Shown here: one piece after another, positions 6,863-49,872 of the stretch
How positions within the stretch are numbered: the first letter of the stretch is position 1
How the letters are laid out: each line of letters begins with the position of its first letter
DNA from: Halorhabdus sp. CBA1104
Lineage (GTDB): Archaea; Halobacteriota; Halobacteria; Halobacteriales; Haloarculaceae
Assembly: GCF_009690625.1 (NCBI RefSeq)
Contig: NZ_CP033878.1
Span: 1,364,001 to 1,428,000, forward strand
DNA length: 64,000 nt
Direction: 5' to 3'
Made by a program: the position numbers and the translations under genes
Notes under the pieces: model-generated
Seen by the model: the letters and a program-made list of their open reading frames with translations, nothing else
Database searches by the model: none
What the model was told of the DNA's origin: nothing

Positions 6863-7798
6863 ATGCAGGAGATACCCGGTATCCACCACGTAACGGCGAT
6901 CGGAAGCGACCCTGGCGAGAATCGGCAATTTTACACCGAAACCCTCGGCCTCCGGCTGGTCAAACGAAGCGTCAACCAGGACGACGCCTCGGTCTATCAC
7001 CTCTTCTATGGCGACCGCTCGGGATCGCCGGGCACCAGCATGACGTTCTTCCCCTACCCCGGCGCACGGGCGGGCCAGGTCGGCACTGGCCAGGTCAGCA
7101 CGACGCAGTTTCTGATTCCCGCCACCGCCGTCGACTACTGGGTCGAGCGCCTCGAAGCGGCCGAGGTCGACATCGGCGAGCGCCACGAGCGCTTTGGCGA
7201 GACGGTCATTCCTGTTTCCGATCCCGACGGGCTCCCGCTGGAACTGGTTGCCGTCTCGGATGCCCCTGCGGGCGATCCACCGGACGGACCGGTCCCCGCC
7301 GAACACGCAATCTGCGGGTTCTACGGCGTGACCCTCGCACTGTCCGATATCGATGCCACCGCACGCGTCCTCGAAACGATGGGCTACGAGCAAACGGACA
7401 GTGACGGCACCCGGGTCCGTTACGAGAGTGACGGCGACCTGGGGTACGTCGTCGAACTGCTGGCCGATCCAGACCTACCCCAGGGTCGGCCGGGAGCGGG
7501 CACGATCCACCACGTGGCGTTCCGTGTCACGAGCGACGACCAGGCCGACTGGCGTGAGGAGCTTCAAAGTCTCGGCCTCCGACCGACGGCAATCATCGAC
7601 CGCAAGTGGTTCGAGTCGGTGTACACCCGAACGCCCGGCGGTGTGCTCTTCGAGTACGCGACCGAAGGACCAGGCTATACGGTCGACGAGGATCTCGAAA
7701 CGCTGGGTGAACGACTCGTCTTGCCGGAGTGGCTCGACGATCGCCGCGAGGAGATCGAACAGGGACTGCCGTCGCTATCAGTCGAGACGAGCGAGTAG
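6863..7798 (+). CDS. Ring-cleaving dioxygenase-like VOC/glyoxalase protein
   Basis: A 311-residue protein with two vicinal-oxygen-chelate domains, starting MQEIPGIHHVTAIGSDPGENRQFY (about 5-130) and then HAICGFYGVTLALSDID to TIHHVAFRV (about 150-275). This two-module layout matches hydroquinone ring-cleaving enzymes of the MhqA/MhqO and LinE type. Metal ligands are likely the histidine in IHHVTA, the histidine in TIHHVAF and a glutamate in GGVLFEYA. The neighbouring DoxX and HxlR genes are also typical of quinone or electrophile stress responses. The substrate is not known. Confidence 0.85.
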   Translation: MQEIPGIHHVTAIGSDPGENRQFYTETLGLRLVKRSVNQDDASVYHLFYGDRSGSPGTSMTFFPYPGARAGQVGTGQVSTTQFLIPATAVDYWVERLEAAEVDIGERHERFGETVIPVSDPDGLPLELVAVSDAPAGDPPDGPVPAEHAICGFYGVTLALSDIDATARVLETMGYEQTDSDGTRVRYESDGDLGYVVELLADPDLPQGRPGAGTIHHVAFRVTSDDQADWREELQSLGLRPTAIIDRKWFESVYTRTPGGVLFEYATEGPGYTVDEDLETLGERLVLPEWLDDRREEIEQGLPSLSVETSE

Positions 7799-7816
7799 CC
7801 GTCCCGCCGAGTGCGA

Positions 7817-8233
7817 TTAGAACAAGCCGAGACCGACGCTATAGGCCCAGGATTGGCTCGCCACAGCAACGAGGACGAGTGCCCCGCCGGCCATACCGAC
7901 ATTCTTCAGGAACTGTGTCAACTCGTCCTGTTTTTGGTCCTCGGGGACCGCCCAAAAGTCGTGCATCGTCAGCGCCGAAACGAACAGGAATGCAGCGAGC
8001 GCTGCCGCCCCGACAGCCGGATAGAGTCCCACCGCGATACTGAGGCCAGCGGCCACGAGGACGACGCCGGATGCGACAACCGAGAACCCGGGCGCTGGGA
8101 GGCCCTTGTGCTGGGCGTAGCCGGTCATCGCCTCGCGCTGCTGGAAGTGATTGAGCCCCATAAACGCCAGCACGACGCCGAACAGCAGGCGACCGGCCAG
8201 CAAGATGACCCCCGCTGTGCCTTCGATCGCCAT
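7817..8233 (-). CDS. DoxX family membrane protein
   Basis: A 138-residue protein with four predicted membrane helices (about 7-27, 50-68, 72-90 and 112-135) and the DoxX-family pattern LLAGRLLFGVVLAFMGLNHFQ and FLKNVGMAGGALVLV. DoxX proteins sit in the membrane, often next to redox or quinone-stress genes. The gene is divergent from an HxlR regulator and convergent with the ring-cleaving dioxygenase, so all three may answer the same chemical stress. Function of this member is inferred only from family and context. Confidence 0.88.
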   Translation of the reverse strand: MAIEGTAGVILLAGRLLFGVVLAFMGLNHFQQREAMTGYAQHKGLPAPGFSVVASGVVLVAAGLSIAVGLYPAVGAAALAAFLFVSALTMHDFWAVPEDQKQDELTQFLKNVGMAGGALVLVAVASQSWAYSVGLGLF

Positions 8234-8326
8234 CAGGCACGCACCTCCACTTCCGCGGGGCTACTCACACTCGTGGTGGTCGATACGCGATTGGCGTCGT
8301 CAGTTACTGATATCATTCCGTTAGTT

Positions 8327-8350
8327 GGTTCGTTTGCGAACCTATTTATG
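8327..8350 (+). promoter_or_regulatory. Palindromic operator next to a TATA box (HxlR/DoxX divergon)
   Basis: GGTTCG (8327-8332), spacer TTTG, CGAACC (8337-8342) is a perfect inverted repeat directly followed by TATTTATG (8343-8350), a TATA box about 35-42 bases before the HxlR start. The repeat lies where the TFB recognition element should be, so a bound regulator would block TFB. Winged-helix HxlR proteins bind such inverted repeats as dimers, so autoregulation and DoxX control are likely. Confidence 0.6.
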
Positions 8351-8384
8351 CGCTCGGCGACAAGAATGCGATCAGATAACACCG

Positions 8385-8738
8385 ATGTCACCCACCGCCA
8401 CGAGCCAGGAGCAGTCCGTCGAGGAGCGAAACGCCGCGGCCTGTCCGATCGTCGAAGCAGTCGAACAGATCGGCTCGGAGTGGCGACTGATCGTCTTGCA
8501 CGACCTCGTTGACAGCGAACAGCGGTTCAACGAGCTCAAGCGCTCGACCGGGGCGAGTTCCCGGACCCTCTCGCGGGTGCTCGACGACCTAGAAGACGCG
8601 AACCTGGTCGATCGCCGTGTCGAGGATCGGCCGATCGCGACCTACTACTCGCTGACCGAGAAAGGACAGGCGCTGTGTCCGATCTTTACGGACCTAGAGG
8701 AGTGGGCCGACGAGTGGGTAGACGGAATCGAGGGGTGA
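8385..8738 (+). CDS. HxlR-family winged-helix transcriptional regulator
   Basis: A 117-residue MarR-like/HxlR DNA-binding protein. It shows the family pattern CPIVEAVEQIGSEWRLIVLHDL (about 23-45), FNELKRSTGASSRTLSRVLDDLEDANLVDRR as the recognition helix and turn, and a wing with YYSLTEKGQAL. A cysteine at about residue 23 in ACPIVEAV is a common redox sensor position in this family. The start at 8385 follows the operator/TATA region; an upstream in-frame start would cover the TATA box. It is divergently transcribed from the DoxX gene. Confidence 0.92.
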   Translation: MSPTATSQEQSVEERNAAACPIVEAVEQIGSEWRLIVLHDLVDSEQRFNELKRSTGASSRTLSRVLDDLEDANLVDRRVEDRPIATYYSLTEKGQALCPIFTDLEEWADEWVDGIEG

Positions 8739-8848
8739 AGGGCCTGTCACGCCGTGATTTTGGGGAATTCTCTACACCACACCGGCGTGGAGTCGATGAT
8801 CCTTCCGCGAGGCTAAGTATTTTGAGCCATGGATGTGGATTATCGATC

Positions 8849-9217
8849 ATGCAGGTCTTGGTGGGGGTTGGCGGCACAGAACGTTCGTTTGGGGCCTTAG
8901 AGGGAGCCCTCGAGCGTGCCAGGCAGGCCGGCGACGAAGTAGCAGTGGCAGTTTTCGACGATCCATCGGCTACACTGACAAGAGAGCAAGTACGGGATCG
9001 GATTTCGACAATTCTCGAAGAGTACGACCGGGATGTAAAACTGCAGGACATCGACGGCGATCCGGGATCACAATTAGTACAGGTCGCCGAGAACGGCGAG
9101 TTCGACCAACTCGTGTTGGGGGACGGCAACCGGACGCCGATGGGCAAGATACAGCTAGACAGCATCGCCCAATTCGTCCTGTTTAACTCCCACGTCACCG
9201 TCAAACTCGTTCGATGA
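8849..9217 (+). CDS. UspA-like universal stress protein
   Basis: A 122-residue protein of the universal stress protein (Rossmann-like) fold: MQVLVGVGGTERSFGALEGALERA, a central strand DQLVLGDGNRTPMGKIQLDSIAQFVLFNS, and a final HVTVKLVR strand. The ATP-binding G-x2-G-x9-G(S/T) motif is not intact (GDGNRTPMG), so nucleotide binding is uncertain. A TATA-like AAGTATTTT lies about 30 bases before the start. Its stop overlaps the start of the GNAT gene (TCGATGA), so the two are an operon. Confidence 0.85.
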   Translation: MQVLVGVGGTERSFGALEGALERARQAGDEVAVAVFDDPSATLTREQVRDRISTILEEYDRDVKLQDIDGDPGSQLVQVAENGEFDQLVLGDGNRTPMGKIQLDSIAQFVLFNSHVTVKLVR

Positions 9218-45709: not shown

Positions 45710-46210
45710 ATGACTCGCGTCTGCCTGCTCGGGACCGACGACGTCGCCCTCCGGCAGACGCTGCGCTCCCACGAGACCGCTCGCGACGCATTGTGGACCT
45801 ACGACCTGACGGATCCATACCGGAACGCCGTCGAGGTAGAAACCGTGAGTCTCGGGGCCGCGATCTCCCTGCTGAATGATCTCAACTGGTATCTCGTCCG
45901 CTACGTCGCGGACACGCTCCTCAGAGAACCGAGCGTCAGCGAGACCGAGTGGCTATCCCGCGAGCTGGCGAGGGACATCCGCGACGGCCGCATCGATCCG
46001 GACGAATCGGATCGCTATCTCAAAGTCTACGGCGTCATCGACCCGGACGACAGCGATAGCGAGGAGACGAGCGACGAGGCGAATACGGCTCGGCGGCTCG
46101 TCGAACCGATGTACGTGACCCGAACGGACGGCTCGATCCCGACCTACGACCTACGCGACGTGACCGACACTGTCGTCGTTCGCGTGACCGAATCGGAATT
46201 CAGTAGCTGA
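45710..46210 (+). CDS. DUF5804-like haloarchaeal protein
   Basis: A 166-residue protein, MTRVCLLGTDDVALRQTLRSHETARDALWTYDLTDPYRNAVEVETVSLGAAISLLNDLNWYLVRYVAD at the N-terminus and MYVTRTDGSIPTYDLRDVTDTVVVRVTESEF near the C-terminus. The TRVCLLGTDDVALR start and middle match the haloarchaeal DUF5804 family, whose role is unknown. The start at 45710 lies 100 bp after thiI on the same strand, so the two are likely cotranscribed. Confidence 0.8.
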   Translation: MTRVCLLGTDDVALRQTLRSHETARDALWTYDLTDPYRNAVEVETVSLGAAISLLNDLNWYLVRYVADTLLREPSVSETEWLSRELARDIRDGRIDPDESDRYLKVYGVIDPDDSDSEETSDEANTARRLVEPMYVTRTDGSIPTYDLRDVTDTVVVRVTESEFSS

Positions 46211-46268: not shown

Positions 46269-47918
46269 CTAAGCAGGTGATCGCTCGGGTGAAGGCGGAA
46301 TCGGTTCGACGAACCCGATAATATCGAAAGCAGCGGGGTGGCCATCCTCCAGAACCGTTGCGTGGACCGAGAGCTCGATCAGCTCCCCGTCGCTGTCGTA
46401 CGCATCGATGTCGAACTCGGAGATCGATCCGGCCGTCACGAGTCGATCGAGAAGTGTTTCCCGTCGCTCCGGGTTGGCGTATACGTCCGTCGCCAGATCG
46501 TCGCCACTCTCGATGGCAGCCGCCGGTGATTCATACCCCAGCAGTGACGCCAGCCACTCGTTGACCTTGTGTACCTCACCGTCGGTGTCAGTCCGGAACA
46601 TACCGAACGGTGCGAGGTCGAACAGCGTCTCGTATTGTTTCAACTCGCGGTCGCGGGTTCGCTGTTCGGTCACGTCTCGGACGACACCGTCGAAGTACCG
46701 CTCGCCGCTCTCTTCGGTCATAATACCGGTCACTGACGCCCAGAATTCCGCTCCGGAAAGTCGCTGCAGTCGAAGCTCCATATCCCGGACGATGCCTTCC
46801 CGTTCGAGGGCCCTGATGAACTGCTCGCGGTCGGCGGGATCGGCGTACAGTTCCTCGAAGGGGCGCCCGACGAGATCCGATGCATCGGCGGCTCCAAACA
46901 GGTCGACCAGCGCGGGATTGACCTCGATCAGCGTCCCGTCGGGCAGCGGCGAGTTCCGATAGACGCCTTCGGGAACATTCGAGATGATTCGCTCGTAGCG
47001 CTGCTGGCGTTCGTGCAGTTCGATCCGGTAGATCGCGTGGGCCAGGTCGTCGCCGATCTCGGCCAGAAGTTCCCGTTCGCGCCAGTCGAAGGCATCGGCC
47101 GCCTCGGCGTACAGACAGAGGACGCCGTAGCGGTCCCCCTCGTAGACGATCGGGAGGGCTGCCGCCGCGCGGTAGCCACGCTCTGTGGCCGTCGCCGGCC
47201 ACTGGTTTGTCTCGTCGACCCGCGCCGTTGTAATGGTGCCCGCCTCCAGGGCGTCCCAGACGGGGCAGGCCGCCCCCTCAGCCGAGTCTGCAAGCAGTTT
47301 CTCGCCGTCGAGATCAGCATCGTCACAAACAGCATTCGCCCTGATGGTCAGTGAGTCACCAGCGGATTGGGGCTCGGCGATACAGGCGAGCCGATACGGC
47401 TCGGCGCCGGCGACGATCTCACAGACGTGGTGCTCGATCGTCGCCCGATCGTGTGACCGCACCAGCGCCTGATTGACGTCCCCGAGGATAGTCCGGATGC
47501 GATCGAGGCTGCTGGCCCGCTGGCTGGCCCGATACTGCTCGACAGCATTGCGTGCCCGGTTGGCGAGGAGTTCGTACTGCTCGCTGCCGGTGTCTTTCTG
47601 GAGATAATCGGTGACACCACTTGCGATGGCCTCGCTTGCGACCTCCTCGCTCCCCTTACCAGTAAACAGAATAAAGGGGAGATCGGGATACGATGCCCGG
47701 ACGGTATCGAGCAATTCGATACCGTCCATCCCCGGCATGTCGTAGTCGCTGACTACACAGTCGGCGGATGATGTATCGAGGCGATCCAGCACCTGAGAAG
47801 GATCCGTCACAGTGATCGTCTCGATGGCCTCGTCAGCCCGCTCGAGGTACGAGGCCGTCAGCGCGACCAGATCTTCCTCGTCGTCGACACAAAGCACCGT
47901 GACGGCCTGCCCTGACAT
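46269..47918 (-). CDS. Response regulator with GAF and two PAS domains
   Basis: A 549-residue signalling protein. The REC domain (about 5-125) has the phosphoacceptor D58 in CVVSDYDMPGMDG and the FTGKGSEEVASEA switch region. A GAF domain (about 145-290) and two PAS domains (about 300-415 and 425-540; ISNVPEGVYRNSPLPDGTLIEVNPALVDLFG, LFDLAPFGMFRTDTDGEVHKVNEWL) follow. No kinase, HTH or other output is visible. The second PAS is close to that of the paralog at 49102-49872. A TATA box ATTATAATG about 25-33 bases upstream supports the start at 47918, as does the shared MSG start of the paralog. Confidence 0.88.
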   Translation of the reverse strand: MSGQAVTVLCVDDEEDLVALTASYLERADEAIETITVTDPSQVLDRLDTSSADCVVSDYDMPGMDGIELLDTVRASYPDLPFILFTGKGSEEVASEAIASGVTDYLQKDTGSEQYELLANRARNAVEQYRASQRASSLDRIRTILGDVNQALVRSHDRATIEHHVCEIVAGAEPYRLACIAEPQSAGDSLTIRANAVCDDADLDGEKLLADSAEGAACPVWDALEAGTITTARVDETNQWPATATERGYRAAAALPIVYEGDRYGVLCLYAEAADAFDWRERELLAEIGDDLAHAIYRIELHERQQRYERIISNVPEGVYRNSPLPDGTLIEVNPALVDLFGAADASDLVGRPFEELYADPADREQFIRALEREGIVRDMELRLQRLSGAEFWASVTGIMTEESGERYFDGVVRDVTEQRTRDRELKQYETLFDLAPFGMFRTDTDGEVHKVNEWLASLLGYESPAAAIESGDDLATDVYANPERRETLLDRLVTAGSISEFDIDAYDSDGELIELSVHATVLEDGHPAAFDIIGFVEPIPPSPERSPA

Positions 47919-47940
47919 GAGCGGGGCGACACACTCTGCC

Positions 47941-47950
47941 ATTATAATGA
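47941..47950 (-). promoter_or_regulatory. TATA box for the REC-GAF-PAS gene
   Basis: On the minus strand, CATTATAAT runs between 47941 and 47949, about 25-30 bases before the ATG at 47918. This fixes the start at 47918 instead of the in-frame ATG at 47942, which would overlap the box. Confidence 0.6.
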
Positions 47951-48034
47951 TGGTGGAAAATTGTTCTGAAACCCGCCCGCAGAGGCAGGGCCAAGAAGTG
48001 TCCGTCAGTCGAATAGTCTGCTCGAACGCGTTCC

Positions 48035-48943
48035 TCAATCGAACAGCCCTGTCGAGAGATACCGCTCGCCGCTGTCCCAGAACACCGTCACCACCAGCGG
48101 TGTGTCCGAAGCCTCCGGGTCGGCGCGCTCTTCGGCAACTTCCCGAGCGATAACCCCCATCGCGCCGCTCGACTGGCCGACGAGGATGCCTTCCTCCTGG
48201 GCCAGACGACGACACTCCGCTTTGGCATCGTCCAGAGCGACGGTTCGTACCTCGTCGAGCAACTCGCGATCCAGGTTGTCACTGACGAACCCCGGCCCCA
48301 TCCCCTGGAAATTGTCAGATCCGGACTCGCCAGTCGAGAGGACGGCGTTGGACTCGGGCTCGACGGCGATGACGTCGACCCCGGGGAACGCCTCCGTGAG
48401 TCGTCGTGCGTTTCCACTGATCGTGCCGCCCGTCCCGACGCCGGCGACGAACGCGTCGATCGTCCGATCGCCGATCTGATCGAGGATTTCGCGGGCCGTC
48501 GTCTCGTAATGGGCCTGCGGATTGGCCGGGTTCTCGAACTGGCAGGGCTGGAACGTGCCTGCCTCGGCTTCGAGTTCGTCCGCCCGCTTGCGGGCAGTAG
48601 TCATGTCACCCTCGACGAGTTCGAGGTCGGCCCCGTAGGCCTGCATGAGACGACGGCGCTCGACGGACATGTCTTCGGGCATGACGAGAGTCACATCGTA
48701 GCCCTTTGCCGCTCCCACAAGCGCGAGTCCGATGCCCGTGTTCCCGCTCGTCGGCTCGACGATACTGTCGCCGGCTTCGAGTTTACCCGCCTGCTCTGCG
48801 GCCTCGATCATACGCAAGGCTGGGCGGTCCTTCGCCGACCCGCCCGGATTGAACGACTCTACCTTCGCGGCGATGGTCGCCCCTGGCGGCGAGGATAGCT
48901 CGACCAGCGGCGAGCCGATCGTCTCCAGAATCGACGTATCCAT
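48035..48943 (-). CDS. cysK: Cysteine synthase (PLP-dependent)
   Basis: A 302-residue fold-type II PLP enzyme making cysteine from O-acetylserine (or phosphoserine) and sulfide. The PLP lysine is K38 in VESFNPGGSAKDRPA; phosphate loop TSGNTG is at 65-70, and the GVGTGGTISGNARRL loop is at about 167. The protein is of bacterial CysK/CysM type. It lies between two REC-PAS genes on the same strand; no serine acetyltransferase is near. The start at 48943 is well supported. Confidence 0.93.
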   Translation of the reverse strand: MDTSILETIGSPLVELSSPPGATIAAKVESFNPGGSAKDRPALRMIEAAEQAGKLEAGDSIVEPTSGNTGIGLALVGAAKGYDVTLVMPEDMSVERRRLMQAYGADLELVEGDMTTARKRADELEAEAGTFQPCQFENPANPQAHYETTAREILDQIGDRTIDAFVAGVGTGGTISGNARRLTEAFPGVDVIAVEPESNAVLSTGESGSDNFQGMGPGFVSDNLDRELLDEVRTVALDDAKAECRRLAQEEGILVGQSSGAMGVIAREVAEERADPEASDTPLVVTVFWDSGERYLSTGLFD

Positions 48944-49101
48944 TTGGACCGGCTAGCGCTGTGGGACGTAAATCTCTCCCGGACACCGGCAGGATCTACC
49001 GTGGCCGAGGACGCGATCCACTGGATGGGCTGTTTTTGTACGGGGTTCGACGATTGGGGCGACTGACCAGCGACGACGAGCCGAGACGCCCACCTGAAGT
49101 G

Positions 49102-49872
49102 TCACTCCCGTTCGGACTCCGGGACACGCCAGGTGTAGCCGACGATTTCGAAGGGCCGAGTATCGGACTCGTCCAGTACCGTTGCGTTCATACGAAACGT
49201 TCGTGTTTCGCCCGACTTCGTGCGAGCCTCGTACTGGAAGTTTGTGACGGTCCCCTCGGTGGCCAGTCGGTCGATAAACGTCTCGCGTCGCCCCGGAGAC
49301 CGGTACAGTTCCTGGGCGAGATCGTTGTACGCATCGATGGCAGCCGACGGTGTGTCGTAGCCGACGAGGGCAGCCATCGCTTCGTTGACCTCGTAGACCG
49401 TGCCGTCCGAGGCTGTGCGAAAGATCCCGATCGGGGCGACGTCGAACAGCGTTTCGTAGCGCTTTAGCTCCCGATCGCGCCGTCGCTGGGCGAAAGCGTG
49501 TTCGATCCGATTGGCCAGCAACGCGTATCGCTCCCGGCCGCCCCCCTTCTGTAGATAGTCAGTGACGCCGCGTGCGATCGCTTCACTGGCGACTTCCTCG
49601 CTCCCCTTGCCGGTAAAGAGAATGAACGGGAGTTTGGGATGGTCGGCTCGGATCGCTTCGAGTAATTCGAGGCCGTCCATGCCGGGCATGTCGTAATCGC
49701 TGACCACACAGTCGACGGCGTTGCTCGACAGTCGATCGAGGACCGCAGTGGGGTCCGTTTCTGTGATGATCTCGAAGCGCTCTGCGCTACGCTGGAGGAC
49801 AGTTTCACTCAACGTGAGAAAGTCCGGATCGTCGTCGACACAGAGTACAGTGACAGCGTCGTCCCCCGACAT
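49102..49872 (-). CDS. Response regulator with single PAS domain
   Basis: A 256-residue paralog of the protein at 46269-47918: REC (about 5-125) with D59 in CVVSDYDMPGMDGLELLEAIRADHP, then one PAS domain (about 140-250; LFDVAPIGIFRTASDGTVYEVNEAMAALVGYDTPSAAIDAYNDLAQELYRSPGRRETFIDRLATEGTV). It ends with no kinase, HTH or other output. The start at 49872 follows a TATA-like ACTTATGC on the minus strand about 30 bases upstream. The two paralogs flank cysK, so this is a duplicated pair. Confidence 0.88.
   Translation of the reverse strand: MSGDDAVTVLCVDDDPDFLTLSETVLQRSAERFEIITETDPTAVLDRLSSNAVDCVVSDYDMPGMDGLELLEAIRADHPKLPFILFTGKGSEEVASEAIARGVTDYLQKGGGRERYALLANRIEHAFAQRRRDRELKRYETLFDVAPIGIFRTASDGTVYEVNEAMAALVGYDTPSAAIDAYNDLAQELYRSPGRRETFIDRLATEGTVTNFQYEARTKSGETRTFRMNATVLDESDTRPFEIVGYTWRVPESERE

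Follow-up and report, generated by a model that had tools for sequence, protein, structure and literature searches.

The window analysed here is a 64,000-nucleotide stretch of the Halorhabdus sp. CBA1104 genome (contig NZ_CP033878.1, positions 1,364,001 to 1,428,000 of the forward strand). It contains a cysteine synthase gene, cysK, flanked on either side by a gene for a response regulator without an output domain, which we term RR1 and RR2. All three genes lie on the minus strand and are transcribed in one direction in the order RR2 - cysK - RR1, and the interval from 46269 to 49872 extends from the stop codon of RR1 to the start codon of RR2 (Table 1). Start codons at ATG 47918 for RR1 and ATG 49872 for RR2 are consistent with the homologues; the upstream GTG starts offered by the open reading frame lister are overextensions, as the homologues support the ATGs.

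In RR1, Pfam places Response_reg at residues 8-113 (1.6e-22), GAF_2 at 157-296 (2.4e-12), PAS_9 at 326-418 (1.5e-21) and, as the second PAS, PAS_8 at 428-487. RR2 is matched by Response_reg at residues 9-113 (5.7e-23) and by PAS at 138-243 (5e-7). No HisKA, HATPase, HTH, HalX, CheB, or enzyme model scores above the Pfam cut-off in either protein, and the sole extra model at E 0.01 is a sub-cut-off OKR_DC_1_N match that overlaps the REC domain of RR2. Likewise, a genome search gave no HATPase match inside the RR1 or RR2 open frame. A kinase remnant behind RR1 was considered and none is present; ~60 nt separate the RR1 stop from the convergent stop of the DUF5804 gene. The REC residues with textbook roles in phosphorylation are D12, D13, D58, T86, and K108 in RR1 and D13, D14, D59, T87, and K109 in RR2.

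The two proteins are closely related. In single BLASTP comparisons, 97/176 residues (55%, E 1e-55) are identical over the REC-containing stretch and 61/125 (49%, E 1e-39) between the last PAS domain of RR1 and the only PAS domain of RR2, and E values of this size put the similarity far beyond chance. Since the RR2 PAS domain is 49% identical to the second PAS of RR1 versus 33% to the first, RR2 looks like a shortened paralogue consisting of REC and the last PAS. The initial annotation had described the pair as two minus-strand genes with a common REC and C-terminal PAS domain, an added GAF and PAS in the longer one, and no kinase, DNA-binding, or enzyme output in either, and this description is borne out in full.

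Table 1. Positions in the window of the genes, domains, and promoter element at the cysK locus.
Feature	Position	Strand	Basis
RR1, REC-GAF-PAS-PAS response regulator without output domain, 549 aa	46269..47918	-	Pfam, synteny, genus searches, REC clade
RR1 REC domain, ~residues 1-130; acceptor D58	47529..47918	-	Pfam, alignment
RR1 GAF domain, ~residues 130-302; C166, C179, C218, C268	47013..47531	-	cysteine comparison
RR1 first PAS, ~residues 301-419	46662..47018	-	Pfam
RR1 second PAS, ~residues 420-549, counterpart of RR2 PAS	46272..46661	-	BLASTP
RR2, REC-PAS response regulator without output domain, 256 aa	49102..49872	-	Pfam, BLASTP
cysK, cysteine synthase (PALP), 302 aa	48035..48943	-	Pfam, NCBIfam
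TATA-like element TTATAATG, ~29 nt 5' of RR1 start, putative promoter	47940..47947	-	alignment
DUF5804 protein, encoded convergently to RR1 within the old sulfur block; not counted in the switch	45710..46210	+	Pfam, synteny

Regulators of this kind form a published archaeal class, class v of the 2018 census (Galperin 2018, PMC5847659), for which that census predicts dimerisation and protein-protein interaction upon phosphorylation or ligand binding and which it finds mostly in methanogens. The protein type is thus not new, and as a class such proteins do occur elsewhere, one of the two outcomes that the initial annotation had named as speaking against its proposal. By sequence, RR1 and RR2 belong to class v: both have an N-terminal REC with a phosphorylatable Asp followed by PAS and/or GAF, and no output domain. 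They differ from the class as described in their fixed place 3' of cysK, restriction to one genus, clade-specific cysteines, shortened paralogue, and stepwise domain loss. REC-HalX and Bat-type regulators are a poor fit, as HalX and BAT plus HTH_10 are absent from RR1 and RR2 by Pfam. RR1 also resembles class vi of that census, the REC-(PAS/GAF)n-HisKA-HATPase kinases (PMC5847659). These share the N-terminal REC-GAF-PAS order, and two REC-GAF-PAS proteins with HATPase in the same frame (L195 and L196, 38-39% identical over ~460 residues) are among the top matches of RR1 in its own genome, whereas RR1 and RR2 have neither HisKA nor HATPase. In the single 2.63 Mb contig of the CBA1104 genome, 24 REC matches face 37 HATPase matches, and 12 of the 24 share an open frame with a HATPase match. 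The other RECs comprise one CheY-like, one CheB-like, one Bat-like (read from sequence), and one REC-only protein, five of REC-HalX size (HalX match in 4/5), and three output-less REC-PAS/GAF proteins, i.e. RR1, RR2, and a 561-residue REC-GAF-PAS-PAS protein.

The link to cysK was followed through 120 cysK loci (80 from named records and 40 from other genomes; some genomes are present twice and some loci are short), 9 of them from 7 Halorhabdus genomes (H. salina and H. amylolytica twice) and 111 from other genera. In 7/7 Halorhabdus genomes (9 loci), the gene immediately 3' of cysK, on the same strand, encodes a REC protein, while RR2 stands 5' of cysK in only two, CBA1104 (G000) and H. salina (G049). 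Outside the genus, a gene of the RR clade accompanies cysK in 0/111 loci. REC genes of any type occur within 1 kb of cysK in four of these, all of unrelated types: two resemble REC-HalX by eye (L169, L189), one is a stand-alone REC (L113), and one a short REC (L185). Genus g3, to which Halapricum sp. CBA1109 belongs, has no REC gene beside cysK in any of the six genomes examined. The cysK-linked neighbourhood is therefore real but genus-restricted. Given the 111 loci from other genera, we reject a haloarchaea-wide REC-cysK unit, and the new signalling unit around a sulfur gene that the initial annotation had envisaged is not supported as one shared by haloarchaea. The co-occurrence with cysK that it suggested checking holds for the 3' gene within Halorhabdus and fails elsewhere, and flanking on both sides describes this locus rather than the general arrangement.

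All cysK-linked RECs together with RR2 form one clade, with a support of 100/97 against own-genome and other-genus RECs in a reduced 19-row set and of 84/91 on the full 37-row REC set. In the 37-row tree, two RECs of CBA1104 with long branches fell within the clade; these and 16 other rows were omitted from the 19-row tree. The phosphorylation residues are kept in 9/9 clade members. Within the REC tree, RR1 (G000/G049) and RR2 are separate lines, and the approximately unbiased (AU) test does not reject a single clade (p 0.098). The topology thus does not favour a recent origin of RR2 as a copy of CBA1104's own RR1, and with one clade compatible with the AU test the duplication may be older or younger. 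Tandem duplication of a cysK-RR pair with loss of one cysK is not supported either: there is no cysK remnant between the thioredoxin-like gene and RR2, where tblastn and blastn upstream of RR2 gave chance-level matches only. The architecture varies across the genus (for the RR1 orthologs, Pfam in G001 and G021 only, the others by tblastn and reading of open frames). REC-GAF-PAS-PAS is found in G000 and G049 and, with the last PAS shortened by a stop, in G061; G073 and G001 have REC-GAF-PAS, and G021 and G036 REC alone.

Despite this shortening, RR reading frames are intact from start to stop in 7/7 genomes. The ratio of nonsynonymous to synonymous substitution rates (dN/dS, Nei-Gojobori) for the G000/G049 pair is 0.07 for cysK, 0.18 for RR1, and 0.13 for RR2, and within RR1 it is 0.11 for REC, 0.25 for GAF, 0.13 for the first PAS, and 0.21 for the second. 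Pairs with REC-only forms reach 0.18-0.28, and every tested pair stays below 0.3. This is the pattern of functional genes under purifying selection, with looser constraint than on cysK. Moreover, the intergenic stretch between cysK and the RR gene contains a TTAT[G/A] element ~29-33 nt (by eye) before the RR start in 7/7 Halorhabdus genomes. Such spacing is the usual place of the TATA box in leaderless haloarchaeal transcripts. As the element recurs at the same place in all seven genomes, RR1 probably has its own promoter of the leaderless type, besides any read-through from cysK.

Taken together, intact REC, GAF, and PAS domains, the missing effector, purifying selection, and the Halorhabdus-only clade 3' of cysK are consistent with RR1 and RR2 being output-less archaeal regulators that work as phosphorylation-controlled protein-interaction switches, a reading to which we assign a probability of roughly 60%. 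A histidine kinase encoded elsewhere would phosphorylate D58 in RR1 and D59 in RR2. Phosphorylation could then alter REC pairing along the long helix that is predicted to follow the domain (residues 113-151 in RR1, pLDDT (predicted local distance difference test) ~35-48; 113-145 in RR2, pLDDT ~33-63), and the altered pairing would change which proteins the GAF/PAS part binds. Since RR1 and RR2 resemble the N-terminal halves of REC-GAF-PAS histidine kinases, these kinases are likely partners, which RR1 and RR2 would tune or compete with. The position and the GAF cysteines described below suggest a link to cysteine synthesis.

Several points weigh against such a switch. We did not find a kinase partner or target of RR1 or RR2, and according to the 2018 census the class had no experimentally studied member (PMC5847659). 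Several species have lost sensor domains, with REC alone left in G021 and G036 and the last PAS shortened in G061, so the GAF/PAS part is dispensable in places. The REC-cysK link may go back to one founding event inside a block that is conserved anyway and may thus be passive synteny, and RR1 seems to be served by its own promoter. Finally, the structural models give little guidance on the GAF/PAS part, for which pLDDT is mostly <60, and the post-REC helix is weakly modelled too. Mean pLDDT is 45 for RR1 (AlphaFold2, 3-row alignment) and 57 for RR2 (5 rows), where REC alone is good. A sequence search of the PDB returned REC matches and the REC-GAF chain 6oap, whose match spans residues 8-304 of RR1; with the RR1 GAF domain alone it returned nothing, and with a GAF profile weak GAF matches.

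The most serious alternative concerns the cysteines of the clade. In the GAF domains of the cysK-linked regulators, cysteine occupies position 179 in 4/5, position 218 in 5/5, and position 268 in 5/5 (RR1 numbering), compared with 1/22, 0/22, and 0/22 in other REC-GAF proteins, of which 20 are from Halorhabdus and two from other genera (L111, L152). C166, in contrast, is general (21/22 other GAFs). Clade members have 4-5 cysteines per GAF versus a mean of 1.55 in the other REC-GAF proteins. Matches below ~115 residues, duplicates, and matches with E > 1e-6 were left out of the count, and seven further other-genus loci (L280-L286) gave no GAF match under these settings. The REC domain has a marker of its own, Cys10 in the motif VLCVDD, present in 9/9 clade members (one of them parsed one residue off) and in 0/62 other parsed RECs, which mostly read VLHVDD; among the 6/68 other RECs that were unparsed, one has ILCVDGD. 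The weak AlphaFold2 model puts C179 and C268 on strands 175-183 and 262-271 of the GAF sheet (pLDDT ~50-57), and for this reason a shared site for the GAF cysteines is possible. The RR1 GAF domain has the conserved cysteines expected of cysteine-ligated or thiol GAF sensors, to which we do not claim that it belongs. A functional precedent, proposed by analogy and without any claim of kinship, is the chloroplast sensor kinase, whose 3Fe-4S cluster has a cysteine of the GAF domain as a ligand and whose GAF is proposed to sense redox state (PMC6949291). Both GAF domains have conserved cysteine(s); the chloroplast protein, unlike RR1, is a kinase with a demonstrated 3Fe-4S cluster.

On these grounds, RR1 might serve cysteine synthesis as a sensor of thiol, redox, or sulfur state. 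The three clade-specific GAF cysteines, along with C166 and REC C10, would hold an Fe-S cluster or a metal, or would be converted to a disulfide or persulfide. Their state would control whether RR1 is phosphorylated or binds a partner, which in turn would adjust CysK or sulfur uptake; RR2 would be a GAF-less partner that answers to phosphorylation only. The place beside cysK in all seven genomes suits such a role, as does the continuation of the gene row into two half-size ArsP_1-like permeases. In G073 the pair begins within 12-48 nt of the RR gene, according to which start codon is taken, and the two permease genes share 4 nt; G049 has a similar pair after RR1. Against this stands that the five clade GAFs are related, so that each cysteine may represent one inherited gain, that C179 is replaced by Ser in G001, and that G021, G036, and RR2 have no GAF at all. 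Moreover, most comparison GAFs come from Halorhabdus itself, and no reliable structure has the cysteines meeting in one site. We therefore regard the sensor as rather unlikely. Less likely still is a Halorhabdus-specific thiol/sulfur-state switch that would join a phosphorelay to direct sulfur or redox input and act by protein contact, with RR2 as its GAF-less second arm. Direct sulfur or redox input is nevertheless a reasonable minority reading. Accordingly, the redox or sulfur signal that the initial annotation had placed in the GAF/PAS part is plausible from the three lineage-specific GAF cysteines and may be tied to cysteine synthesis.

Decay would account for the same genes in another way. 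RR1 and RR2 would be leftovers of REC-GAF-PAS kinases, N-terminal pieces that have lost the kinase core and are eroding from the C-terminus. The similarity to kinase N-terminal halves, the shrinking series from REC-GAF-PAS-PAS over a cut last PAS and REC-GAF-PAS to REC only, and the faster change of REC in pairs with REC-only forms all point this way. Yet the frames are open in every genome, the phosphorylation residues persist throughout the clade, dN/dS is well below 1 in every domain, and the TATA-like element is kept in 7/7, which makes decay improbable. Equally doubtful is a mere phosphate sink or competitor, in which the RECs drain phosphoryl groups from, or pair with, REC-GAF-PAS kinases and thereby damp another pathway, with an accidental position at cysK: the excess of HATPase over REC matches implies many kinases without a linked regulator, and no part other than REC is retained throughout the 7 genomes, but a sink alone leaves the retention of GAF/PAS in 5/7 genomes and the new cysteines unexplained.

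Beyond RR1 lie the convergent DUF5804 gene and then thiI and metK, and the order DUF255 - thioredoxin-like (trx) - cysK - DUF5804 - thiI - metK is common in haloarchaeal cysK loci; because it is so widespread, cysK appears to be part of an old sulfur-related block. CysK itself matches PALP at 5.8e-68 and the cysK/cysKM models at ~1e-101, just below the NCBIfam curated cut-offs, and its nearest named relatives are those of Halorhabdus salina FL145 (91% identity) and H. amylolytica H27 (81%). DUF5804 stays beside thiI and metK in many haloarchaeal loci, and its preserved place hints that it acts in the metabolism of sulfur or S-adenosylmethionine. In the G001/G036 cysK loci (L159, L157), DUF255-trx-cysK is nearly identical (proportion of synonymous differences, pS, 0.08-0.15), whereas pS is 0.59 for the REC gene, 0.51 for DUF5804, and 0.29 for thiI and metK; this drop in similarity points to a recombination breakpoint at the regulator gene. 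Further upstream, at window positions ~48960-49030 (minus strand, 5' of cysK), CCTGCCGGTG-ACCG followed by TTTAC is well conserved in 7/7 Halorhabdus genomes and is likely the cysK promoter or a regulator site.

The ArsP_1-like permease pairs (~170-216 aa each) were located at G073:C1:930435-931540 and G049:C1:154057-155234, and further pairs at G021:C2:2532907-2534006, G061:C20:206268-207361, and G006:C1:1632772-1633784. In G006, which belongs to another genus, the pair adjoins DUF5804-thiI-metK; in the CBA1104 genome, no such pair was found at E 1e-15.

The only other output-less REC-GAF-PAS-PAS protein of the CBA1104 genome resembles RR1 in context. It is the product of L226:5954-7639 and is likewise encoded beside a PALP enzyme, here of the ilvA type. 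In contrast to RR1, its REC falls outside the cysK-linked clade, its GAF has none of the three cysteines, and its gene (+) is convergent with the PALP neighbour, a threonine ammonia-lyase gene at 7645-8913 (-) a few nt away (G000:C1:2527953-2530912). This adjacency recurs in 4/7 Halorhabdus genomes (G000, G049, G061, G073) and in 0/34 other-genus ilvA loci, although in one of these a REC lies at a distance of 1.8 kb. In CBA1104, each of the three genes for output-less REC-PAS/GAF proteins thus adjoins a PALP gene, of which the genome has eight matches; noticed post hoc, this may be coincidence.

What is new at this locus is a clade linked to cysK and confined to Halorhabdus, in which one paralogue is shortened, domains are lost step by step, and cysteines specific to the clade occur. 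Literature searches returned no title or abstract that treats the RR1/RR2 proteins or the REC-cysK link. Output-less REC-PAS/GAF regulators are common in archaea, and the 2018 census gives their partners as unknown (PMC5847659). The locus provides a tractable entry to them, with seven species, natural truncations from REC-GAF-PAS-PAS to REC alone, and one fixed place, and it also puts forward cysteine synthesis as a candidate pathway and individual cysteines by name. If the RR proteins do respond to sulfur or redox state, this would give the class its first input and output.

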